41,875 bases of DNA, taken from positions 1-41,875 of the IMG/VR virus record IMGVR_UViG_3300044841_000105, one strand, 5' to 3'. The translations under genes were made by a program, and so were the position numbers. The notes beneath the pieces were generated by a model. That model searched no databases, had not been told where the DNA came from, and saw only the letters and a program-made list of their open reading frames with translations. Below, piece by piece: positions 4,381 through 41,875 of the stretch. This stretch comes from a virus. How positions within the stretch are numbered: position 1 is the stretch's first letter; each line of letters begins with the position of its first letter.

Positions 4381-5025
4381 GTGGCTGAGGCTACGACAGA
4401 GGAACGCTGGCTGCCCATCCCGGGGCACGGCGGCTACGAAGTCTCCGACCTCGGACGGGCTCGCAGCGTCCCTCGGATGATCCATACGCGAGACGGCAGG
4501 AGTTACCCGCATCGCGGTCAGCTCCTCCGGACATGGCCCGAGCGCGGTTACCTGTGCGTCCGCCTCGGACAGGGGCGCCAGTACGGCGTCCACCGCCTCG
4601 TCCTGCTCGCGTTCGTCGGCCCCTGCCCACCTGAGCTCGATGAGGCCCTACACCGCAACGGCGACAGGTCTGACGCTCGCCTGGTGAACCTGCATTGGGG
4701 GACCAAGTCGGAGAACATGCTCGACCGCGTCAGGCACGGGACCTGTCCGATGTCGAGCAAGACTCACTGCCCACGGAGTCACCCGCTCGTCGCCCCGAAC
4801 CTCATCCCCTCGAACCTCAGAAACGGGGACCGTGCGTGCTGGGCGTGTTCGAAGGCGAACCGCAAGATCCACTGGTGTGAGGAGAATGGGTTCGTGCCGC
4901 CCGACATCCAGGAGGAGTCGGACCGCTGGTACCGGCTGATCCTGGCTGGGAAGACCGACGGCCGGGCAGGTCGGAAGATGACGAAGTGGTTGCCGATAGA
5001 CCAGCAGCCGCGGCGGGCGTCCTAG
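4381..5025 (+). CDS. HNH homing endonuclease with NUMOD4 domain
   Basis: 214 residues on the strand opposite to all its neighbours. The N-terminal 'W-LPIPGHGGYEVSDLGRARSV' (residues 10-30) is a NUMOD4 DNA-binding module. The HNH nuclease core follows with H71, the H91-R-N-G motif and N103-L-H-W-G...N112. A C-terminal zinc ribbon is visible (CPRSHPL...CWAC). The GTG start has AGGAG five bases upstream. Family members make a site-specific cut and spread themselves into an uncut allele. The gene sits between the portal gene and a 27-aa gene, and its stop overlaps that gene's stop tail-to-tail, which suggests insertion into the late operon. It is intact as read. Confidence 0.9.
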   Translation: MAEATTEERWLPIPGHGGYEVSDLGRARSVPRMIHTRDGRSYPHRGQLLRTWPERGYLCVRLGQGRQYGVHRLVLLAFVGPCPPELDEALHRNGDRSDARLVNLHWGTKSENMLDRVRHGTCPMSSKTHCPRSHPLVAPNLIPSNLRNGDRACWACSKANRKIHWCEENGFVPPDIQEESDRWYRLILAGKTDGRAGRKMTKWLPIDQQPRRAS

Positions 5026-14336: not shown

Positions 14337-14641
14337 GCGGTTCTCCGATCGAACGCCTGGCGGGCGTGGGCAATGACGCGGTCGGCTGCCCGGCCGAGGT
14401 ACAGCACGGCGAGCTGTTCCCCGCGCATCCACTCGGGGCAGGGCCACGGCTGCCGGCAGTCGGCGCAGCGTCCGTAGCGGCCGCGGTGGTCGGGCTCGTC
14501 GACGAGGGTCAGGTGCGTCTCCTCGATGGCTTCGAGGACGGCGGCGATGTCGTCTTCCTCGTCGGTGGGGCCGACCCAGGGGAAGCGGGAGTCGCGGGTG
14601 CGGAGCGCGGCGACGGTGGTGGCGAAGCTGGGGCGGCTCAT
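14333..14641 (-). CDS. Hypothetical protein with Cys cluster (102 aa)
   Basis: MSRPSFATTVAALRTRDSRF, then DDIAAVLEAIEETHLTLVDE and a cysteine group RCADCRQPWPCPEW that could bind zinc. It ends in a helix AADRVIAHARQAFDRR. Its ATG overlaps the DnaB stop (ATGA), so it is coupled to the helicase, but no role is established. Confidence 0.55.
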   Translation of the reverse strand: MSRPSFATTVAALRTRDSRFPWVGPTDEEDDIAAVLEAIEETHLTLVDEPDHRGRYGRCADCRQPWPCPEWMRGEQLAVLYLGRAADRVIAHARQAFDRRTA

Positions 14642-15936
14642 CCGATGGCCCCGTATCCGCCGTGCCACCGCAGCTTGATCTCGCCCTTGGGTCCATGCCG
14701 GTTCTTGTCCACGATGAACGTGACCTCGCCGGTGGGCTGCCCGTCGTTGAGCTGGTGCCACAGCAGGATCACGGCGTCGGAGTCCTGCTCGATCTGCCCG
14801 GAGTCACGCAGGTCCGACATGGTGGGCTTGGAGTCCTGGCGTCCGGCTGGGCCGCGGTTGAGCTGAGCGGGGACGACGAGCGCGAGCCCCAGCTCCATCG
14901 CCAACGCCTTGAGCTCGCGGGAAACCCGCCCGACCTCCTGCTCGCGGGTTCGGCCCGGGCTGTCGGTGTGCACGAGCTGCAGGTAGTCCACGACGAGCAC
15001 ATCCAGCCCGTGGCGGTGGTGATGCGCGCGGGTCAGGGTCTTGATCCCGGACAGGTTCACCGGCGAGGCGTTGACGTGCAGGTGCGGCGTACCGACCCGC
15101 TTGAGGTACTCGCGGACCCGGGCCATCTGCACGTCGTCGATGGGGTGGTGGTTGATGGCGCGCAGGTCGACCTGGGCGCCGCGGGCGATGAACCGGCCGG
15201 TGACGTCGACGGTCGGCATCTCCTTGGAGAACACCAGGACGTTGCGGCTCGACTCGGTGGCCGCGTGCTCGGCAATCACCAGTGCAGCCGTGCTTTTGCC
15301 CGCGCCCGGCCTTCCGCCAATGGTGTACATCCGCCCGGGATGCAGCCCGCCGAGGATCTCGTCGAGCTCGAACCACGGCGACGGGATGCCGGGCGTGGCG
15401 TTGCCGGGTGCGTGGGCCTGCTCGAACTCGTCGACCAGCTGCGGCCAGGACAGGGTGCCCGCGGTGGGCTTGTCCTCGGTGTCGCGGTCGAGGTCGTCAA
15501 GCCCGGAGCGGGTAGCGGCGAGGACGTCGGACGCGTCACCGGGGTGGGTGGCGACGAGGACGCGGGCGTGGGTGAGGGCGCGCAGGATCTTCCGCCGCTC
15601 GGCGAGGTCGGCGACGGCGTCGGCGTGCTTCGACGCGAACACGGCGGACGCAGAGTTCGGCATCTCCATCTGCACGACACGCTGCGTCCCGGCCGACCAG
15701 TTGCCGTCCGAGAGGAGACGCCGGGCGACGGTGGTCGGCGTGATGGGCTGCCGCTCCGACGACAGCGCCCGGCACGTGTCCCAGACGATGCCGCGAGGGA
15801 GGTCGTAGAAGTCGGATCCGGGGAGCCGGGCGAGGATGCCGGCCAGGGCGTCGGGGTGGAACGCGACCGCCCCGATCAATGCCTGCTCGGAGTCGGGGGC
15901 CTGGAGCTCGAGCTCGGTGATGTTCTCGGGCTTCAT
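14638..15936 (-). CDS. dnaB: Replicative DNA helicase, DnaB-like
   Basis: 432 residues. The N-terminal helical domain (APDSEQALIGAVAFHPDALA...) matches DnaB-N. The RecA-type motor follows with Walker A GGRPGAGKST (207-216), FSKEM, Walker B LDVLVVDYLQLV (311-322) and QLNRG, then a DLRDSGQIEQDSDAVILLW segment diagnostic of DnaB. It unwinds DNA ahead of the replisome as a hexamer. The DnaC-like loader lies three genes upstream, so the phage controls its own helicase loading. The start overlaps the preceding stop. Confidence 0.93.
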   Translation of the reverse strand: MKPENITELELQAPDSEQALIGAVAFHPDALAGILARLPGSDFYDLPRGIVWDTCRALSSERQPITPTTVARRLLSDGNWSAGTQRVVQMEMPNSASAVFASKHADAVADLAERRKILRALTHARVLVATHPGDASDVLAATRSGLDDLDRDTEDKPTAGTLSWPQLVDEFEQAHAPGNATPGIPSPWFELDEILGGLHPGRMYTIGGRPGAGKSTAALVIAEHAATESSRNVLVFSKEMPTVDVTGRFIARGAQVDLRAINHHPIDDVQMARVREYLKRVGTPHLHVNASPVNLSGIKTLTRAHHHRHGLDVLVVDYLQLVHTDSPGRTREQEVGRVSRELKALAMELGLALVVPAQLNRGPAGRQDSKPTMSDLRDSGQIEQDSDAVILLWHQLNDGQPTGEVTFIVDKNRHGPKGEIKLRWHGGYGAIG

Positions 15937-16322: not shown

Positions 16323-16747
16323 TCGGCGTTCCTCGCCGGGAGGACCCACTCGCCGTCGACCTGGTCGCGCCACCGTAGTTGGCGCTCCCACGCCTCATCG
16401 GTCTTGCGGCGCTCGATCTCCGCGGCGACGGCCTCCTCGACGGCTTGGTCCGCGGCAACCCCGGCACGTTCCTGTACGGGCTCCCAGAAGCGCAGCAGAC
16501 GGTGCACGTCGTAGAGCTCGCGCTGGATGTCGTCGAGCCGCGTGCCGTCCTGCTCGATGAGCCGAGCGACACGGCCCGCGCCGAGGCGGGCCTGCCGGGC
16601 GACGTGTGCCAGTTGCGCGCGCTCGTCCGTGTCGGCCCAGTTGGCCACCTGATCGGACACTCGCTCGCGCGGGTAGCAGGCCTGGCGCACGGACTTCTCG
16701 GCGTCGGCCTGCCACTGCTCACGGGACGGCCACTCTCGGGTGCTCAT
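16319..16747 (-). CDS. Hypothetical alpha-helical protein (142 aa)
   Basis: Almost entirely helical and charged: MSTREWPSREQWQADAEKSV, DERAQLAHVARQARLGAGRV, ARLIEQDGTRLDDIQRELYD and AVEEAVAAEIERRKTDEAWE. A coiled-coil or helicase-adaptor role would fit its place between DnaB and DnaC, but this is inferred from position alone. ATGA overlap with the DnaC-like gene. Confidence 0.55.
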   Translation of the reverse strand: MSTREWPSREQWQADAEKSVRQACYPRERVSDQVANWADTDERAQLAHVARQARLGAGRVARLIEQDGTRLDDIQRELYDVHRLLRFWEPVQERAGVAADQAVEEAVAAEIERRKTDEAWERQLRWRDQVDGEWVLPARNAE

Positions 16748-17406
16748 CGAGCCGCCTGCTCAGCTGCCGCGGTGGTGCGCCGGTCGGACCCCTTGAGGAC
16801 GACGGGTGCGCCGGCCATCTCGACGAGGCGGGACGCGACCCGGTCGCCGAGGACGCGGGCGAGTTCCTTCGGCGGGACGTTCGACGTGATGAACGTGGGG
16901 AGCTTCCGCTCGTACCGGTAGTTGACCAGCCGGTAGTTGACCTCCTCGTTCCACTCGCTGGGCTTGGCCGCCCCGAGGTCGTCGAGCGCGAGGACGGGGA
17001 CGTGGGCGTGCCGGGCGAACTCCTCCTCGGAGTCGATCCCGAACCGGGGCCGCATCGCGGCGTACAGGTCGGCGGCGGTGGTGACGACGGCGGAGCAGCG
17101 GATGCCGGACGTGAGCAACGCCCGGACCGCGGCGTAGGCCAGGTGAGTCTTTCCGGTGCCGGTCGCCCCGACGAGGAGTAGCGACGGGCCCTCGACGATG
17201 ACGGGCTCGCGCCAGTCGGAGGCCGCGGACACTGCCGTCCCCATGACGGTGGTCACCCACACGTCGACGTCGGGGTGGTCGATGGTGGCGCTGGCGAAGC
17301 GAGCCGGGATCCGAGCGAGGTCGCGCGAGGCGACAGTGATCGCCTGGGAACGCCAGAACGCGCGCTGCTCGTCGGACGGCAGGAATCGCCGGGGGGTGTC
17401 GGTCAC
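16744..17406 (-). CDS. DnaC/IstB-like ATPase, helicase loader
   Basis: 220 residues from a GTG overlapping the preceding stop. AAA+ features: Walker A LLVGATGTGKTHLAYAAV (about residues 78-95), Walker B VPVLALDDLGAAKPSEW, sensor-1-like TFITSNVPP and the arginine motif GDRVASRLVEM. Those are the signatures of DnaC-type loaders, which place DnaB onto DNA. The match with DnaB and an initiator in one operon makes the role secure at family level. Confidence 0.9.
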   Translation of the reverse strand: MTDTPRRFLPSDEQRAFWRSQAITVASRDLARIPARFASATIDHPDVDVWVTTVMGTAVSAASDWREPVIVEGPSLLLVGATGTGKTHLAYAAVRALLTSGIRCSAVVTTAADLYAAMRPRFGIDSEEEFARHAHVPVLALDDLGAAKPSEWNEEVNYRLVNYRYERKLPTFITSNVPPKELARVLGDRVASRLVEMAGAPVVLKGSDRRTTAAAEQAAR

Positions 17407-18359
17407 GAGGTCTCCTGGGTCGGGTACATCGGCTCGTCGTAGACGGACTGGTCGGTCGGGTTGCTGTACGGGGTCGCGCCGCCGCCAGTGAGGGGGACCG
17501 AGGCGAGATGCCGGCCGCCCTCGGCCTGCGCGCGGAGCCGCAGCGAGTCGTACTGCTTGCGGAACTTGGGCATCCCGCCGATGTTCGAGCGCCAGAACCC
17601 GTCGTCCTGGCACCAGTCGATGAGGCGGTGAGCTTCGGCGGGGTCGCGCTTGTCGCGGTCGAGGAGGAGCCGCGCCTGGTTGCGCCAGCCGTTCGCTTCG
17701 GAGGACGTCGGCGCCTTGCGGCCGTTCGCGACGATGCGGTCGCGGAGGTGCTTGCAGAGTTCTTCGACCTCGGGCCTCGCCTTGTCGGCGGCCGCGCTAG
17801 CGGGCGTTGACGAAGAGGTCTCTTCTTCTTTTCGGGTCGGGTCGGGTCGGGTCGGGTCGGGAAGAGCGGACCCCGGCCGTGACTCCTCCCGTGACACGTC
17901 ATCGGTGTCACGCCGTGACTCTTCGCGTGACTCCTGCCGTGACTCGGAGGGTGACGGTTCCGTGAATCCGGCCGGCGTCCCGCCGTTACGTCGAGCGTCG
18001 CGCCACCGTGCGCGCCGCTCCGCGTCCGCCTTGCGGCGCTGGATGACCTGCTCCTTCGTCGGCTGCCAGTCGTCCCAGTCGTGGAACCGGATTCCCAGTT
18101 CGCCGTCGTGCTCGGTCTCGAACCAGAGTGCGACCTCGATCAGGCGCGCGGCCCAGCTCCGATCCTGATCCCAGTCCTCGACGACCTCCCACGGGACGAA
18201 CCCGTCGGTGAGGTTGTCGGCGGACCAGTCGCCGCAGAGCGTCCAGAGCCCGACGCAGCAGACGCGGTCCGCGCCGAGCCGCCGCACCTTGCGGCTGCGG
18301 TAGAAGGAGTCGTCGACCTTGAACCAAGTTATGACGTCCACCCCCTTCGACTCGGGCAC
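17403..18359 (-). CDS. DnaD-like replication initiation protein
   Basis: 318 residues. The N-terminal ITWFKVDDSFYRSRKVRRLG, VGLWTLCGDWSADNLTDGFV is the winged-helix start seen in phage replisome-organiser proteins of actinobacteria. The C-terminal third (EVEELCKHLRDRIVANGRK...HRLIDWCQDDGFW) fits a DnaD-type domain that contacts helicase loader or DNA. Between them lies a low-complexity linker (SRQESREESRRDTDDV, PDPTRPDPTRK) encoded by short tandem DNA repeats. The start is GTG 18359 or GTG 18341; neither has a clean ribosome site. It is the first large gene of the replication operon. Confidence 0.8.
   Translation of the reverse strand: MPESKGVDVITWFKVDDSFYRSRKVRRLGADRVCCVGLWTLCGDWSADNLTDGFVPWEVVEDWDQDRSWAARLIEVALWFETEHDGELGIRFHDWDDWQPTKEQVIQRRKADAERRARWRDARRNGGTPAGFTEPSPSESRQESREESRRDTDDVSREESRPGSALPDPTRPDPTRKEEETSSSTPASAAADKARPEVEELCKHLRDRIVANGRKAPTSSEANGWRNQARLLLDRDKRDPAEAHRLIDWCQDDGFWRSNIGGMPKFRKQYDSLRLRAQAEGGRHLASVPLTGGGATPYSNPTDQSVYDEPMYPTQETS
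17834..17861 (+). repeat. GGGTC pentanucleotide tandem repeat, G-quadruplex-like
   Basis: Six GGG runs separated by exactly TC (17834-17861) lie inside the linker of the initiator gene. On the plus strand this satisfies a three-layer G-quadruplex pattern with 2-nt loops. The repeat encodes PDPTR units, so gain or loss of three units would keep the frame and other changes would break it. Confidence 0.8.
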
Positions 18360-18461: not shown

Positions 18462-18513
18462 GGTAGGGGGGAGCGGTGACTCGACGAGCAGGGGCGTGAC
18501 GCTCCGCCGTGTT

Positions 18514-18542
18514 ACGATCGTACAGCAAACGTACTACGTCAA
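18514..18542 (-). promoter_or_regulatory. Candidate leftward promoter of the replication operon
   Basis: Read leftward: TTGACG (-35), 17-nt spacer, GATCGT (-10). The spacer overlaps the first of two CGTACAGC-type repeats (18519-18540), and a 10-bp palindrome TACGATCGTA sits at 18513-18522. The -35 is good, the -10 is weak. Confidence 0.4.
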
Positions 18543-18601
18543 GAGCCCGGGAGTCCCGAGAGTCACGGAGGTCCAGTGCTGCAAACCGACCCACGCCTGC
18601 A

Positions 18602-18631
18602 TTGCCGGACGTACAGCGAACGCGCTACCGT
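18602..18631 (+). promoter_or_regulatory. Promoter and operator of the RHH gene (leaderless)
   Basis: TTGCCG (18602-18607), 18-nt spacer, TACCGT (18626-18631), then seven bases to ATG 18639, the spacing of a leaderless actinobacterial transcript. The spacer holds CGTACAGCGAACGCGCTACC, a second copy of the repeat at 18519-18540, so a protein bound here would block the promoter. Self-regulation by the RHH product is the simplest reading. Confidence 0.6.
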
Positions 18632-18638
18632 CCGACGC

Positions 18639-18854
18639 ATGGCGCGTATCCCCATGAAGCCGCGGAACTTCCGCGCATCTGACCAGGCCTGGGACGACGC
18701 CATCGCCACCGCCGACGCGGCCGGAGAGAACCTCGCCGACCGGCTCCGTGAGTTCCTCGAGTGGTACAGCCGCCAGCACGGAGCACGCGCACCCCGACGG
18801 CCGGACAAGGCGGTGCGCGCGGCGGAGCTGACCGACGACCAGGCTGCGCGCTGA
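18639..18854 (+). CDS. Ribbon-helix-helix DNA-binding regulator
   Basis: 71 residues, MARIPMKPRNFRASDQAWDD then AIATADAAGENLADRLREFL: a short strand followed by two helices, the Arc/CopG RHH layout. The C-terminal tail is basic and then acidic. It is the only plus-strand gene between 5.0 and 35 kb and has its own leaderless promoter and a strong terminator, so it forms an independent unit in the middle of the leftward operon. The matching repeats at both the divergent promoters make it a candidate switch for replication genes. Confidence 0.7.
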   Translation: MARIPMKPRNFRASDQAWDDAIATADAAGENLADRLREFLEWYSRQHGARAPRRPDKAVRAAELTDDQAAR

Positions 18855-18876: not shown

Positions 18877-18911
18877 AACCGCCGGCCCCCCACTCAAGGA
18901 GGCCGGCGGTT
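18877..18911 (+). terminator. Hairpin after the RHH gene
   Basis: AACCGCCGGCC (18877-18887) and GGCCGGCGGTT (18901-18911) are perfect 11-bp complements around a 13-nt loop. It begins 22 nt after the RHH stop and 17 nt before the end of the opposite gene at 18928, so it can separate the converging transcripts in both directions. Only a short T-containing tail follows. Confidence 0.7.
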
Positions 18912-18927: not shown

Positions 18928-19155
18928 CTACAGCCGCCCCCGGTAGTCGGCATGCACGCCACCGGCGTGGACCTGGTTGCCCCAGGTGAGGTCGACAACG
19001 GGCGGGATCCCACCAAGCGTGGAGCGCCGCTCGTGCTCGGCGACCTCCCCGCGGAGCTGGAGGACCTCGTCGGCGAGGACGTGCCCGACCTCGGTCTGCT
19101 CCCAGCGGGTGGCGAGTGGGTCGCGGGCGATGTTGAGGGCTGTGTCGACGTTCAT
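18928..19155 (-). CDS. Small hypothetical protein (75 aa)
   Basis: MNVDTALNIARDPLATRWEQ, then TEVGHVLADEVLQLRGEVAE and GGIPPVVDLTWGNQVHAGGV. Helix-rich N-terminus and an extended Gly/Pro end. Its ATG overlaps the Dcm stop by one base (TGATG), so it is translated with the methyltransferase. Last gene of that leftward block before the terminator hairpin. Function unknown. Confidence 0.55.
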   Translation of the reverse strand: MNVDTALNIARDPLATRWEQTEVGHVLADEVLQLRGEVAEHERRSTLGGIPPVVDLTWGNQVHAGGVHADYRGRL

Positions 19156-20525
19156 CAGGCGGCCGCCTCTCGCGCCTCAGTGGCGAGGAGCCAGCGCAGC
19201 GCGGCCTCGGCCTGCTGAGACACGACCCCGTTCCCGAGGAGCTTGAGCTGCTCGTTGCGAGTCAGGCCGGGAACGGCGGTGACGTGGCCCTCGGGGAGGC
19301 CTTGCATCCACTCGACGAACGGCGGGGAGAGCTGCTGCCCGCCGCGCTGCCCGGTCTGGGTGGGTGCTGGTGCGGGTCGTCCGAGGATCAGCTCCCAGCG
19401 TCGGATGGCGGGCTCGTAGTCGCCCCAAGAGACTGGATGAGACGGCGCGTTGCCTCCGGCATCTCCTCGTCCGCCGGCAGGTGCGCTGGCCGCTCGCCCA
19501 TCACCAGCAGCGCGATCTCGTCCAGCCCCGGCGGGCTCGACTGCCCCCCGCCCGACCGGCGACCGTTCTCCCTCGAAGCCGTCATCGCTCGGGTGCTCTT
19601 GCCGTTCGCCATCGCTCGCGGCGTCGGAAGCAGCGCTTCGTCGGCCCGCTCCGGTGGTGCCCAGAACACGTCGAGCAGCGTCTCGCCCGAGTGGTGTTGG
19701 CTGCCCGGCTTCCTGCCTGAGGTCGCGTTCCGGGTGCCCTTCGCGTCCGTCGCGCACGGCGTCGGCAGTAGGGAGATCGTGGTCCGGAGATCCTGGCCGC
19801 CGTCCCCGTGCTGCCCCGCCCCGAACCGGTCCGACGCCGTCGGGGTCGGGAGCAGCGAGTGCACCGCCGACGGGAGCATCTGGTCCCCCGAGGAGCCGCG
19901 CTGGTTCGGGCCGCCCTTCTCCCCGTCCGATGCTCGCGGTGTCGGAAGCAGCAGGCCAGGCGGTGATGAAGATGCGGTAGCGGCCGTGTGGTGCCCCCAC
20001 GTCGGCAGCGCGTAGGCCGTGCCACCTCGCGTCATACCCGAGGTCGGCCAGGTCTCCGAGTACAGCTCCAAGTGCCCGCAGAGGGCGGCCTTCGTCGTCT
20101 CCCAGACACCACGGGCAGGGTTCCACGTCGCAAGCGGCGTCGGCACTGGTCAGACCTCGCACGTTCTCGATGACGACCAGGTCCGGGCGGAGCTGGTCGA
20201 TGCCGTAGGCCATGTGGGTCCACAGCCCGGAGCGGGTGCCGGGCCGTAGACCGGCACGACGGCCTGCGCTGCTCACGTCCGTGCACGGGAACCCGCCAGC
20301 AACGATGAGCCGCCGCCGGAAGTCGCGCTCGACGGCCGCCCAGTCGACCTGGGTGATGTCACCGAGGTTCGGGACGCCGGGGTGGTGGTGCTCAAGCAGC
20401 CTGCAAGCGGCGGGCTCGATCTCGGAGTAGGCGATCAGGCGCCCGCCGAGCGCATCGCCGACCGCCATCGTGAGGCCGCCGTAGCCCTCGAACAGGCCGA
20501 TGATGTCCGGGCCCTGGTGGCTCAC
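19155..20525 (-). CDS. DNA (cytosine-5) methyltransferase, Dcm-like
   Basis: 456 residues from a GTG overlapping the preceding stop. Motif I is GLFEGYGGLTMAVG (10-23), the catalytic motif IV GGFPCTDVSS has C81, motif VI is ENVRGL (120-125) and motif VIII is APHGRYRIF (178-186). The last motif is LLGNGVVSQQ near the C-terminus. Between VIII and the end lies about 180 residues of Gly/Arg/Asp-rich sequence that would hold the target-recognition region. No restriction partner is nearby. The same DNA has a second open frame of 252 codons (see 19388-20146). Methylation would protect phage DNA from host restriction. Confidence 0.88.
   Translation of the reverse strand: MSHQGPDIIGLFEGYGGLTMAVGDALGGRLIAYSEIEPAACRLLEHHHPGVPNLGDITQVDWAAVERDFRRRLIVAGGFPCTDVSSAGRRAGLRPGTRSGLWTHMAYGIDQLRPDLVVIENVRGLTSADAACDVEPCPWCLGDDEGRPLRALGAVLGDLADLGYDARWHGLRAADVGAPHGRYRIFITAWPAASDTASIGRGEGRPEPARLLGGPDAPVGGALAAPDPDGVGPVRGGAARGRRPGSPDHDLPTADAVRDGREGHPERDLRQEAGQPTPLGRDAARRVLGTTGAGRRSAASDAASDGERQEHPSDDGFEGERSPVGRGAVEPAGAGRDRAAGDGRAASAPAGGRGDAGGNAPSHPVSWGDYEPAIRRWELILGRPAPAPTQTGQRGGQQLSPPFVEWMQGLPEGHVTAVPGLTRNEQLKLLGNGVVSQQAEAALRWLLATEAREAAA
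19388..20146 (-). other. Overlapping alternative frame with LLPTPxASD repeats
   Basis: A stop-free 252-codon frame lies inside the Dcm gene in a shifted frame. It reads PLATWNPARGVWETTKAAL, HLELYSETWPTSGMTRGGTA and then four LLPTP units: LLPTPRASDG, LLPTPTASDR, LLPTPCATDA, LLPTPRAMAN. I recall LLPTPxASD...GGPNQRGSSGD repeats from other actinophage and bacterial methyltransferase-associated proteins, so the frame may be a protein in its own right or a frameshift product. The Dcm frame is also continuous and ends in proper motifs. Not a confirmed gene. Confidence 0.4.
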
Positions 20526-21145
20526 GCCGCCACCCCGTCCAACTGCGCCCGCTCGACCCGCCGCGCCTGCCTCCGCCGTGCCTGCCTGATGGATTCCGCG
20601 TCGACCCGGTACAGGACGGCGGCTTCCTCGACGGTGAGGTTGAGGTAGGTGATCTCGTCGAGGTCGACGACCTTGGCGGGCTGAGCGGGCGTCGGCGCGG
20701 GCTCGTCCACGGCGGGCCGTGCAGCCGGGTCGTCGATGTTGATGCCGTCCCAGAGCAGGGGCGGCGCCCACCCGGCGCGGTGTGCCCGGATCCGCGCGGA
20801 CGACGACGGCCCTGGCGTCCCGGACAGCTCGTTGTAGAGGCGGGCTACGGCTTCGGCGGTGGTGCGGTAGGCGCGCCCGGTCGGGTGTCGGAGGTCGGCG
20901 ATGCGGGTGCGGGCCTGCCGGGGGGTGTAGCCGAGGCGGGAGGCGAGCTCAGTGGCGGGCCAGCCGATCGCGGCGAGTGCCTGCAATCGACGGGCGGTGC
21001 CGGTGGCGTCGACGCGGCCGGCCGGCTGACGGCCGGTGCGGCAGCGTTTGCGGTAGAGGCGTTGCGCTTCGCGGGCTTCGGGGCAGCGGCAGCGGTCGAC
21101 CTGGTAGGCGAGGGCGGTGCCGTGGCGGGGGGCGGGGCAGGTCAT
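20522..21145 (-). CDS. HTH DNA-binding protein with N-terminal Cys knuckle
   Basis: 207 residues. It begins MTCPAPRHGTALAYQVDRCR with C...H...C-x-C, a small metal knuckle. The HTH follows: RRLQALAAIGWPATELASRL, GYTPRQARTRI. The middle has the GPSSSARIRAHRAGWAPPLL motif known from actinophage HTH proteins, and a second HTH-like end reads TVEEAAVLYRVDAESIRQAR. Likely a transcription or DNA-processing factor. Junctions on both sides are 4-nt overlaps. Confidence 0.75.
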   Translation of the reverse strand: MTCPAPRHGTALAYQVDRCRCPEAREAQRLYRKRCRTGRQPAGRVDATGTARRLQALAAIGWPATELASRLGYTPRQARTRIADLRHPTGRAYRTTAEAVARLYNELSGTPGPSSSARIRAHRAGWAPPLLWDGINIDDPAARPAVDEPAPTPAQPAKVVDLDEITYLNLTVEEAAVLYRVDAESIRQARRRQARRVERAQLDGVAA

Positions 21146-22134
21146 GGCGTGACCGCCGCGGGGAACTCGTCCCAGGTGCGGCCGTCGAGCTCGCGGCCGG
21201 CATCGTCCTTGCTGACGTTCCAGACGCCCTGCCAGGAGCCGCCCGCAAGTGCGGTCTTCTCGTCAGCGACCTGGCCGTCCGTGTTGACGTAGACGGACGG
21301 CTCGAACGGCGCGCCCGGGGTGGCGGACCACGTCCAGGAGCCACGCTGCTTGAAGTGGAACGCGACGCCCGCGGCCTGGCCCTGGTCGCGGAGCTGACGG
21401 GCCCAGTCCGGGTGCATCGGGCGGGCGCCCTGGCCGGACTCCCCACCCGCGATCAGCCAATCGATTCCCCTCAGCAGCGCACCGTCGCAGTAGCCGTCGC
21501 ACGGCCCATGGAAGTTCGGGCGCACGTTCCCGCAGGTGAGATCGACCGGACCGAGCAGCGGTTCGCAGGACAGGAACCGCACGGCGGCCGGACTGTCGAG
21601 CAGCGCCGGGATGCGGAGATCCGCCGCCTTCTGGTCCTCGACCGAGACTCCGACCCAGACGTTCGGAAGCGGCCAGCCGACCAACTCGCGCGAGTACACC
21701 TCTCCGGAGACAGCGACCTTCTCCGCGACGGCCGCGAAGAACGCGTCGGACGAGAGCAGCGACCGCATCCGGCCATGCCGCTTCGTGAGCACCTGGTAGG
21801 TGTGCTGCGGCGTGACGGCCATGGTTGCGAATACAGACTCGATGAATGAGGTGGGCACGCCCTTGTGGAACAGGTCGGACATCGAGTTGACGAACACCTT
21901 GCGGGGCTTCCGCCAGCTCAGCGGGGTCGCGAGCGTGTCCGGGTGGACCGTCAGCCCGAAGCCCGGCCCGCTGGTGCGGGGGTCGCCGTCGTTCTGGTAC
22001 TTCGCGGAGCCCATGCCCTTGAGCCGGCGGGCCATGGTGAGGGCGTAGCAGTGATCACATCCTGCAGAAACTCGGTCACACCCAGTAGTCGGATTCCACG
22101 TGGTGTCGGTCCACTCAATCTTCGTGTCGCTCAT
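21142..22134 (-). CDS. Phage Gp37/Gp68 family protein (DUF5131)
   Basis: 330 residues. The start MSDTKIEWTDTTWNPTTGCD and the cysteine motif GCDRVSAGCDHCYA define this family (PF07505-type), as do KPRKVFVNSMSDLFH, YQVLTKR, PNVWVGVSVEDQ and FLSCEPLLGPVDL later on. The clustered cysteines recall radical-SAM enzymes, but the activity is not established. It is common in actinophages. Start overlaps the preceding stop. Confidence 0.9.
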   Translation of the reverse strand: MSDTKIEWTDTTWNPTTGCDRVSAGCDHCYALTMARRLKGMGSAKYQNDGDPRTSGPGFGLTVHPDTLATPLSWRKPRKVFVNSMSDLFHKGVPTSFIESVFATMAVTPQHTYQVLTKRHGRMRSLLSSDAFFAAVAEKVAVSGEVYSRELVGWPLPNVWVGVSVEDQKAADLRIPALLDSPAAVRFLSCEPLLGPVDLTCGNVRPNFHGPCDGYCDGALLRGIDWLIAGGESGQGARPMHPDWARQLRDQGQAAGVAFHFKQRGSWTWSATPGAPFEPSVYVNTDGQVADEKTALAGGSWQGVWNVSKDDAGRELDGRTWDEFPAAVTP

Positions 22135-38066: not shown

Positions 38067-39332
38067 ATGCCCTCAGCCGAGCGCTACCGCGACGAGTCGC
38101 GTGGGATCTGGCGCTACCGCGGCCGCTACTACGACGCTGCCGGGCGGAAGCGGTCGCGCACCTTCGACACGAAAGCCGCGGCATTGCGCTGGGCTGGCGA
38201 GGAGGAGGCGAAGGTCCATCGCGGCCAGCGCACCGACCCGGTCGCCGCCCGGATGAAGTGGGGCGACTGGTGCGATAGCTGGCTCGCGGCGAAGCGATCG
38301 GAGCCGCGCACCCGGCGCACCGACGAGTCGACTGTCCGCGCGCACGTCCGGCCACGGTGGGGCCAGACTCCGCTGATCGCCATCTCGAGGATCGACGTGC
38401 AGGCGTGGGTGAACGACCTGGCCCGGCGCAGATCGGCGAGCACCACCCGCAAGGCCCTGTACGCGCTCTCGAACTCGCTGAACGTCGCCGTCGGCGAGGG
38501 GATCATCGCGGCCAACCCGTGCACCGGCATCGAGGTCCCCACCGTGCCGACAGGGCAGGAGCGGTTCCTGGAGGACGCCGAGGCCGGCCGCATCCTCTAC
38601 CACCTCTCGGATCGGTGGCGGGTGTTCGCCGAGCTGATCCTCGGCACCGGCCTGCGAACGTCGGAGGCCTCCGGACTGCACGCCGCGCGCGTCGACCTGG
38701 ACGCGCTGCGCCTGCACGTGATCGAGACCTACGACGCGCCCGAGGGCGAGATGCGGGGCTACCCGAAGTCGAAGCGGCGCCGCACCGTGCCGCTGTCCCC
38801 CGAGCTCGGCGCCCTGCTGCAGGAGTGGATCGACCGGCACCCGGCGCCCCGCTCGTGCGGGAAGACCCACCGCGCGGGCCGGTGCCCGGGCGGGCTCCTG
38901 ATCACCGGGCCGCAGGGGGCGCCGATCGACGCGCACAACTTCGCCGAGCGGCAGTGGCGCCAGGCCGTCGAGCTGGCCGGGTTCTTCGACGAGGTGCCCG
39001 ACGGCAAGAAGGACGCGAAGGGGCGGGCGAAGACGAAGCGCGTCCCGACGGTGCACCTTCACGACCTCCGGCACACCTACGCTTCGCGGCTCGTGCAGCT
39101 GGGCGTGCCGCTCGAGCGGGTGCAGCTGCTGCTGGGCCACGAGGACCTGAAGACGACGGCCCGGTATGCGCACCTTCGGCCCGAGGACGATTGGGACGAG
39201 GTGCGGGTTGCGTTGTCGATGTCGCTCACCGCGGCGCGCGCCGCCATCCAGGATGGGCCGGAGGATGGGCCGGCGGGTGGGTCCAACTCGGCACAGCGGG
39301 ATACAACTCGGCGTCGCCTGCGGGCGCTCTGA
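38067..39332 (+). CDS. int: Tyrosine integrase
   Basis: 421 residues, ATG with GGAGG upstream. The N-terminal arm-binding domain (WRYRGRYYDAAGRKRSRTFD) and core-binding domain precede the catalytic part: R197 in GTGLRTSEASGL, the SKRRR lysine region (about 236), H332-x-L-R335 in LHDLRHTYAS, H358 in LLGHED and the nucleophile Y367 in ARYAHL. Site-specific recombinase that integrates the phage at tRNA-Arg. The gene ends 61 nt from the tRNA fragment, the usual int-att arrangement. The C-terminus (DGPEDGPAGG) is a low-complexity tail. Confidence 0.95.
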   Translation: MPSAERYRDESRGIWRYRGRYYDAAGRKRSRTFDTKAAALRWAGEEEAKVHRGQRTDPVAARMKWGDWCDSWLAAKRSEPRTRRTDESTVRAHVRPRWGQTPLIAISRIDVQAWVNDLARRRSASTTRKALYALSNSLNVAVGEGIIAANPCTGIEVPTVPTGQERFLEDAEAGRILYHLSDRWRVFAELILGTGLRTSEASGLHAARVDLDALRLHVIETYDAPEGEMRGYPKSKRRRTVPLSPELGALLQEWIDRHPAPRSCGKTHRAGRCPGGLLITGPQGAPIDAHNFAERQWRQAVELAGFFDEVPDGKKDAKGRAKTKRVPTVHLHDLRHTYASRLVQLGVPLERVQLLLGHEDLKTTARYAHLRPEDDWDEVRVALSMSLTAARAAIQDGPEDGPAGGSNSAQRDTTRRRLRAL

Positions 39333-39448: not shown

Positions 39449-39937
39449 CTAGAACGCTCGACCAGAGATCAGCCCGTCAAGGTCAATGGGCCGGGGATGG
39501 GCCGAAGGGCCCGAAAATGGGCCATGGCGACGTCCCGCTGGGCCGCGCCAGGACTGGCGGGCGGGGTTTGGCGTGTCCTCCCAGCGCAGGGCTCCGTTCT
39601 GGACGCTTCCGATCTCCCGCCACTCGTCCCCGTCGTCGACGAGGATCCGGTCCGGCCTGGCTCCGCTGAACGATCCGTCGTAAATCCGAGTCCTGACGAC
39701 CCGCTCCCGGTCGACCGAGACATGCTCGTCGGAGCCGACGCCCGGGAAGCCCAGCGGCCGATGCCACGGCTCCCGGTAGCCGACGAGCGGCTCACCCTGC
39801 GTGCGATGCCAGCTCGCCGAGCACTCGTCGTCGCAGAAGTACAGCGACGGGCCGGCCGGGTCGAGCGGCTCCGTGCACGTCCCACATGCCGGGGCGGTGA
39901 CAGCGTCGATCGCGTCGAGGATGTCCACGGTGGTCAT
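39449..39937 (-). CDS. Hypothetical zinc-finger protein right of att
   Basis: 162 residues. MTTVDILDAIDAVTAPACGT then C-x2-C...C-x3-C: CGTCTEPLDPAGPSLYFCDD, ECSASWHRTQGEPLVGY. This zinc finger followed by YREPWHRPLGFPG is a motif I associate with actinophage accessory or structural proteins. The rest is beta-rich (RERVVRTRIYDGSF, GDEWREIGS). It lies 12 bp right of the tRNA fragment and is transcribed towards it, so it may be a neighbouring element's gene rather than part of this prophage. Confidence 0.55.
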   Translation of the reverse strand: MTTVDILDAIDAVTAPACGTCTEPLDPAGPSLYFCDDECSASWHRTQGEPLVGYREPWHRPLGFPGVGSDEHVSVDRERVVRTRIYDGSFSGARPDRILVDDGDEWREIGSVQNGALRWEDTPNPARQSWRGPAGRRHGPFSGPSAHPRPIDLDGLISGRAF

Positions 39938-40146
39938 TCTCCTGCCTGCTGGGTGCGCTGCAGCCGGAGGAGCCGCCGGCGTTCGGCGTCGAGGAGGCGC
40001 TTGACGACGTCGGTCATGGTCTCGCCGCTGATGTCGCGGGCGAGGCGCTCGACTTCGTCCCAGATGGCCCCGACGCGGAGGTACCGCTTTGGGGTAATGC
40101 CAGTGGGTGGACGTCCTCGGCGGCGGGGTTGGGACGGCTCTGACAT
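39934..40146 (-). CDS. Ribbon-helix-helix regulator
   Basis: 70 residues, MSEPSQPRRRGRPPTGITPK, RYLRVGAIWDEVERLARDIS, GETMTDVVKRLLDAERRRLL. A basic arm, one strand (RYLRVGA) and two helices fit CopG-type RHH. It has a leaderless promoter (TGGACA, 18 nt, TAACCT, seven bases to ATG). Its stop overlaps the next gene's ATG. Likely represses its own divergent promoter. Confidence 0.7.
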   Translation of the reverse strand: MSEPSQPRRRGRPPTGITPKRYLRVGAIWDEVERLARDISGETMTDVVKRLLDAERRRLLRLQRTQQAGE

Positions 40147-41522: not shown

Positions 41523-41806
41523 AGGTACGGCTGCGCGCGCCGGATCAGCGTCGCCTTCGGCACGCCGGTCAGTTTTTCCAGCACTGGCCAGGACAGGTCG
41601 TGGTGCTGCCTCAACGCAGCCACCAGCCTCCCGCTCCAGTGCTGCGCCTCGTCGAACACCAGTTCCGCGTTCTGCACCCCTCGGATCAGGGTCTCTCGGC
41701 CCGCCGCGCTCAGGTCGCTGGCAAGAAGCTCCTGTAGGTCGATCAAGGCGTTCTGCTCCTCGCGGCTGGTCACAGTTGGACAGGTTATCGCCGTGCTTGT
41801 CCACAT
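41519..41806 (-). CDS. Small HTH protein (95 aa) upstream of GIY-YIG gene
   Basis: MWTSTAITCPTVTSREEQNA, LIDLQELLASDLSAAGRETL, then LRQHHDLSWPVLEKLTGVPK, ATLIRRAQPYL: an HTH at the C-terminus. The same AQPYL end occurs in the GIY-YIG gene's HTH, so the two share a duplicated domain. Its stop overlaps the GIY-YIG frame. The ATG lies four bases from the -10 of the symmetric promoter; a later GTG (41773) is an alternative start. Confidence 0.6.
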   Translation of the reverse strand: MWTSTAITCPTVTSREEQNALIDLQELLASDLSAAGRETLIRGVQNAELVFDEAQHWSGRLVAALRQHHDLSWPVLEKLTGVPKATLIRRAQPYL

Positions 41807-41849
41807 CTGGACAGTAGTGGGTCCGCCCAGTACTGTCCAGATGTGGACA
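41798..41849. promoter_or_regulatory. Perfectly symmetric divergent promoter pair
   Basis: TGTCCACATCTGGACAGTA (41798-41816) and its exact inverted copy (41831-41849) are separated by 14 nt. Each arm supplies TGGACA as -35 for one direction and TACTGT as -10 for the other, with 17-nt spacing both ways. A protein bound to the arms would control both transcripts at once. Confidence 0.7.
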
Positions 41850-41875
41850 GGGCAGGAGCCCGCCCGCCCGCTGAC
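41841..41875 (+). CDS. Start of a divergent ORF (cut by window edge)
   Basis: ATG at 41841 opens a frame MWTGQEPARPL to the window edge. The symmetric promoter supports a rightward transcript starting here, but 11 codons are too few to identify a gene. Confidence 0.25.
   Translation, partial: MWTGQEPARPL

Follow-up and report, generated by a model that had tools for sequence, protein, structure and literature searches.

An Arc-like RHH gene facing a leftward phage operon, and an operator-like repeat in two divergent promoter-like spacers

A small gene for an Arc-like RHH regulator is placed against the leftward operon that surrounds it in a virus record from IMG/VR of 41,875 bases and 70.6% GC, analysed here over its full length and hereafter called the window, and a 19-bp element occurs twice in the 279-bp intergenic upstream of this gene, one copy in the spacer of a promoter-like site that precedes the RHH gene and the other in the spacer of a divergent promoter-like site that precedes the replication genes. 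The RHH gene is flanked by a methylase unit and a replication initiator gene, its product is homologous to the Arc-like proteins of mycobacteriophages, and relatives of it recur in counter-oriented cassettes of other phages. On this evidence from sequence, we lean slightly towards a local RHH repressor that would bind at two promoters, its own and the divergent one of the replication genes, and would be distinct from the immunity repressor.

The window and its counter-oriented gene

The window carries an integrase gene (38067-39332), terminase and portal genes, several HTH repressor-like genes at 34.6-37.5 kb, and a series of leftward genes that runs from about 34.6 kb to 0.2 kb, which together mark it as a temperate tailed phage; relatives of its genes suggest an actinobacterial host. 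The main immunity switch is apparently located away from the RHH gene, at 34.6-35.9 kb. Close to the end of the record, the sequence TGTCCACATCTGGACAGTA...TACTGTCCAGATGTGGACA forms a large inverted repeat (41785-41850), and both strands have promoter-like hexamers there.

The first gene of the leftward replication block encodes a replication initiator or replisome organiser (17403-18359, minus strand; phrog_2447, E=1.6e-49), and a DnaC-like helicase loader (16744-17406, minus strand; phrog_50, E=1e-41, IstB_IS21) and a DnaB-like replicative helicase (14638-15936, minus strand; DnaB_C, E=9e-62) are encoded further along. Structure in the leader 5' of the initiator gene is at chance level. The initiator gene itself contains six TCGGG units and about six copies of a 12-bp repeat, CCGTGACTC, at 17832-17945; these repeats (iterons at 17877-17945) are a candidate replication origin. 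On the other side of the RHH gene, and convergent with it, lies a gene for 75 amino acids to which no function is assigned (18928-19155, minus strand), followed by a C5 cytosine methyltransferase gene (19155-20525, minus strand; PF00145), which is an orthologue of the methylase that adjoins the RHH gene in other phages. The leftward operon also includes a gene for a DUF5131 protein (21142-22134, minus strand; PF07505, E=7e-100).

The RHH gene itself (18639-18854, plus strand, 71 aa, with an ATG start at 18639) is alone on the plus strand throughout the interval from an HNH endonuclease gene (4381-5025) to the immunity region (about 35.2 kb), and its product belongs by family profile to PHROG 6506, "Arc-like repressor" (E=1.5e-8, residues 4-44), and is 38-46% identical to the Arc-like proteins of mycobacteriophages. 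Thus, the gene map and the homology both agree with the first-pass annotation, which had described an RHH-type product encoded by the only plus-strand gene in the middle of the leftward operon. Pfam and NCBIfam gave no match with the 71-aa product, and sequence searches of the PDB gave no significant match (AvtR, E=0.33); in the alignment of the RHH family, 10 of the 12 sequences match Pfam RHH_1. The AlphaFold monomer (mean pLDDT 76, pTM 0.43) has helices at residues 15-27 and 32-47 and no strand. The top Foldseek rows are RHH proteins, including the CopASO antitoxin and Arc, and these matches are weak, none being below E 0.38, while a structural second look (VIA) returned many RHH antitoxins, all of them at low Z (<4.5). 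We therefore take the RHH assignment from the sequence, with which the AlphaFold model is only compatible. A second and more distant Arc-like gene is located at 39934-40146 on the minus strand (phrog_6506, E=0.0015); it looks leaderless and is preceded by the promoter-like site that ranks second in the window.

The repeat, the promoter-like sites, and the hairpin

Copy 1 of the operator-like element (18519-18537, plus strand; CGTACAGCAAACGTACTAC) and copy 2 (18610-18628, plus strand; CGTACAGCGAACGCGCTAC) form a direct repeat, D5, with 16 of 19 positions identical (84%) and a start-to-start distance of 91 bp, and a one-base gap lengthens the repeat by a few bases (CTAC-GTC / CTACCGTC). D5 is the best direct 19-mer pair within the 279-bp intergenic, and a 16/19 pair was reached in 14 of 2000 dinucleotide shuffles of this intergenic (p about 0.01). 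Nevertheless, since an equally good pair is present in about 5% of 279-bp pieces taken arbitrarily from the window, the repeat by itself is only moderately surprising and has to be considered suggestive rather than compelling. A third site with the consensus is absent throughout the window at up to three mismatches, and the exact operator pattern has no occurrence in IMG/VR. Multiple operators spread over the genome, as in the case of an immunity repressor, are not found, there being two sites in the window. Neither copy contains a significant palindrome.

The promoter-like site of the RHH gene (18602-18631, plus strand) reads TTGCCG-N18-TACCGT and is followed by 7 nt to the ATG, a layout that is also found in relatives. 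Because this -10 element ends 7 bases before the ATG at 18639, the RHH transcript is probably leaderless or nearly so. The promoter-like site of the leftward replication block (18514-18542, minus strand) reads TTGACG-N17-GATCGT and has a weak -10 element. With a generic promoter matrix of the actinobacterial SigA type (TTGACA, 15-20 nt, TANNNT), whose weights were assumed and unfitted and which was applied only once the sites had been read by eye, the plus-strand site at 18602 is 7th and the minus-strand site at 18542 is 8th in a ranking of about 83,700 window positions; a stricter scan for sigma-70 promoters of the E. coli type found neither site. Copy 1 coincides with the leftward spacer, and copy 2 covers the rightward spacer and the first bases of the -10 element. 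The element thus recurs as had been claimed on first reading, and the further claim that one copy lies over each of the divergent promoters is confirmed, with both spacers filled and both sites highly ranked by the generic matrix. Moreover, the two promoters are divergent and the two copies are direct repeats, and a shared promoter consensus therefore cannot explain the repeat.

Between the convergent RHH gene and the unit formed by the 75-aa and methylase genes, there is a GC-rich, 14-bp hairpin (18877-18911), with a predicted free energy of -29 kcal/mol on the plus strand and -38 kcal/mol on the minus strand. This hairpin is not followed by a U-run, and a scan for terminators of the E. coli type lists none there. 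It is likely a two-way terminator; of the earlier statement that the RHH gene ends in a strong terminator, the strong hairpin holds, but the U-run is missing.

Cassettes and operators in other phages

A direct tblastn of the window RHH protein against phages and plasmids, a pattern scan for this protein on viral and genome contigs, and a scan of genome contigs with the mycobacteriophage alignment gave no relatives; a query with a family consensus, which was composed by hand, retrieved 55 phage records. Relatives of the RHH gene were found to recur in counter-oriented cassettes of several mycobacteriophage genera, of the Gordonia phage GMA1, and of metagenomic phages, an observation that is new here. 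Short cassettes of this kind amid leftward genes are present in Cheoctovirus (F1), Babsiella, Majeke, Philonius, M. abscessus prophages, and GMA1, and in most mycobacteriophage cases the RHH gene is convergent with a DNA methylase gene and overlaps its end; MrSmee is an exception in orientation. The window RHH gene likewise opposes its flanking operon and is convergent with the C5-methylase unit. DillTech15 has the same gene order as the window, namely methylase, counter-oriented RHH gene, and replication initiator; its methylase is orthologous to that of the window (41-42% identity over nearly the full length for the DillTech15 and prophi104-2 methylases) and its replication initiation protein is related to the window initiator (33% identical), and with the DotProduct initiator no relatedness of the window initiator is detectable. 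In two metagenomic relatives, L038 (3792-4652) and L045 (3759-4132), a counter-oriented RHH cassette is located between portal and terminase genes, and thus the cassette can occur apart from replication genes; L038 additionally carries a DUF1232 gene. Philonius and Aggie (L012, L021) lack the operator as well as the first genes of the cassette, and have an MPME mobile element nearby. Searches for relatives of the phage through its initiator, helicase loader, and helicase yielded distant loci only or none, including no phage near enough for comparing the operator pair, and none of the 21 loci with the helicase loader in common contains an RHH gene according to the RHH profile.

The sequence GTATATACNNNNGTATRTAC is found just upstream of the RHH cassettes in 26 fetched loci, near-duplicates included, and in 10 of the 13 genomes that were scanned whole it is a single site per genome, located in the cassette promoter. 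In F1 phages, the promoter is leaderless and its spacer is occupied by this operator (TTGCGC-GTATATACGTTTGTATG-TACAGT). GMA1 and L041 have different palindromes at similar positions, and L045 also has another sequence at its cassette promoter. In a comparison of ten families, the DNA upstream of the cassette is enriched in inverted repeats (combined p about 2e-5), with individual significance in only about half of the families.

In the whole window, the best match of the F1 operator is copy 1, TACGTTTG-CTGTAC, a match that was reached by 1 of 500 local shuffles and by 11 of 200 shuffles of the whole window. The putative site of L038, whose RHH protein is among the closest found to the window protein, matches the same place (local p 0.042), and no match better than chance was obtained in the window region for the operator types of the M. 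abscessus prophage, T46-2, GMA1, L041, and L039. The palindromic operator GTATATAC-N4-GTATRTAC is absent from the window promoter, in which a related, imperfect, and non-palindromic site is present instead, and the copies aligned to the F1 operator have a half-site spacing of 11 bp, not 12 bp. The proposal in the first-pass annotation that the repeat is the operator of the RHH protein is therefore upheld in one part, since the F1 operator finds its best match at copy 1, but it is weakened in another, since the window copies are not clean palindromes.

Proposed regulation and known RHH systems

According to the reading that we favour, the RHH protein, made from a leaderless transcript, would bind copy 2 and shut its own promoter, and would bind copy 1 and block the leftward promoter that feeds the genes for the initiator, the helicase loader, and the helicase. 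Transcription of the RHH gene would stop at the hairpin at 18.9 kb, as would probably, on the opposite strand, much of the transcription that comes leftward from the methylase; if the hairpin does stop leftward transcripts in this way, expression of the replication block would then require the controlled promoter at 18.54 kb. We infer the binding of dimers at both copies, repression, the dependence of the replication genes, and any effect on timing in lysogeny or early infection. As the direct repeats are 91 bp apart, or about 8.7 turns, looping between them could also take place. The RHH protein would be a local and secondary regulator, since the immunity switch appears to be located elsewhere. 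The weak leftward -10 element (GATCGT), the 11-bp half-site spacing, and the lack of a clean palindrome in the copies count against a repressor that acts in this manner, as do the negative result of the RHH profile in the 21 helicase-loader loci and the fact that the second operator copy, on the replication promoter, is not conserved, the relatives showing one operator per genome.

That last point, together with the presence of cassettes at unrelated places, such as between portal and terminase in L038 and L045, and with the promoter-like site and terminator-like hairpin that the RHH gene has of its own, would also suit an autoregulated, moron-like passenger gene that controls its own promoter only, copy 1 being decayed or spare and the replication block being driven from far upstream; we regard this as rather unlikely, given that the F1 operator fits copy 1 better than copy 2, that copy 1 is exactly within the spacer of the leftward promoter-like site, and that leftward transcription meets a hairpin of -38 kcal/mol, which speaks for a new promoter beyond it. 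It is improbable that the repeat is part of a replication origin or a product of chance and has no relation to the RHH protein: more origin-like iterons are located inside the initiator gene (17877-17945), and such an origin or coincidence would leave the placement in two promoter spacers and the likeness to the F1 operator unexplained, even though the repeat adjoins the initiator gene and its statistics alone (the shuffle p value, and the share of window pieces that do as well) are modest. Least of all do we expect a solitary or degenerate, autoregulating type II antitoxin, in spite of the many low-Z RHH antitoxins in the structural second look, as the RHH gene stands alone in the window with no adjacent toxin-like gene and neither Pfam nor PHROGs assigns a toxin family to the partner genes in the cassettes of relatives.

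Beyond the local repressor, we put forward only tentatively, and with less than even confidence, that unrelated actinophage genera may share a mobile, counter-oriented, and self-limiting RHH cassette, which would act as a second, local lock on adjoining lytic genes and whose operator would here have been duplicated onto the replication promoter, apart from the immunity repressor. Genes that read against long phage operons are common and mostly unexplained. If the window gene does encode a local repressor, the small, annotated, and apparently unstudied Arc-like genes would acquire a concrete and testable role, and the replication genes of temperate phages could be held by a second switch beside the immunity repressor. 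As M. smegmatis supports the growth of mycobacteriophages that have the predicted operator, testing should be straightforward.

RHH proteins that repress their own promoter and another viral one are already known (Arc, AvtR, and SvtR), and for the Arc-like cassettes of actinophages our literature search found no study and no experimental work. Arc of phage P22 is a small RHH phage repressor that acts alongside the main immunity repressor, controlling divergent promoters as well as its own expression. Its likeness to the window protein is at the level of the fold only (Arc chains in Foldseek at E 0.38 or worse), and its target genes are different. In archaeal viruses, the RHH proteins AvtR and SvtR each repress their own gene as well as another promoter of the virus, and AvtR covers the DNA between two promoters (PMC5569661); however, these are archaeal promoters with other targets, and no close sequence relation to the window protein emerged (AvtR, E=0.33). 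The nearest counterparts are the Arc-like repressors of PHROG 6506 in F1, N, and P mycobacteriophages and in Babsiella (DillTech15 gp67, Majeke gp56, and Babsiella gp56), which have a homologous RHH core (38-46%) and share with the window the counter-orientation in a leftward operon and an operator-like site in the promoter, which in F1 phages is also leaderless. In these phages, the RHH gene is mostly convergent with a methylase, 41-42% identical to that of the window where compared, but one or two genes usually precede it and a single palindromic operator lies between close divergent genes, whereas the window has a lone RHH gene and two separated, imperfect sites 91 bp apart.
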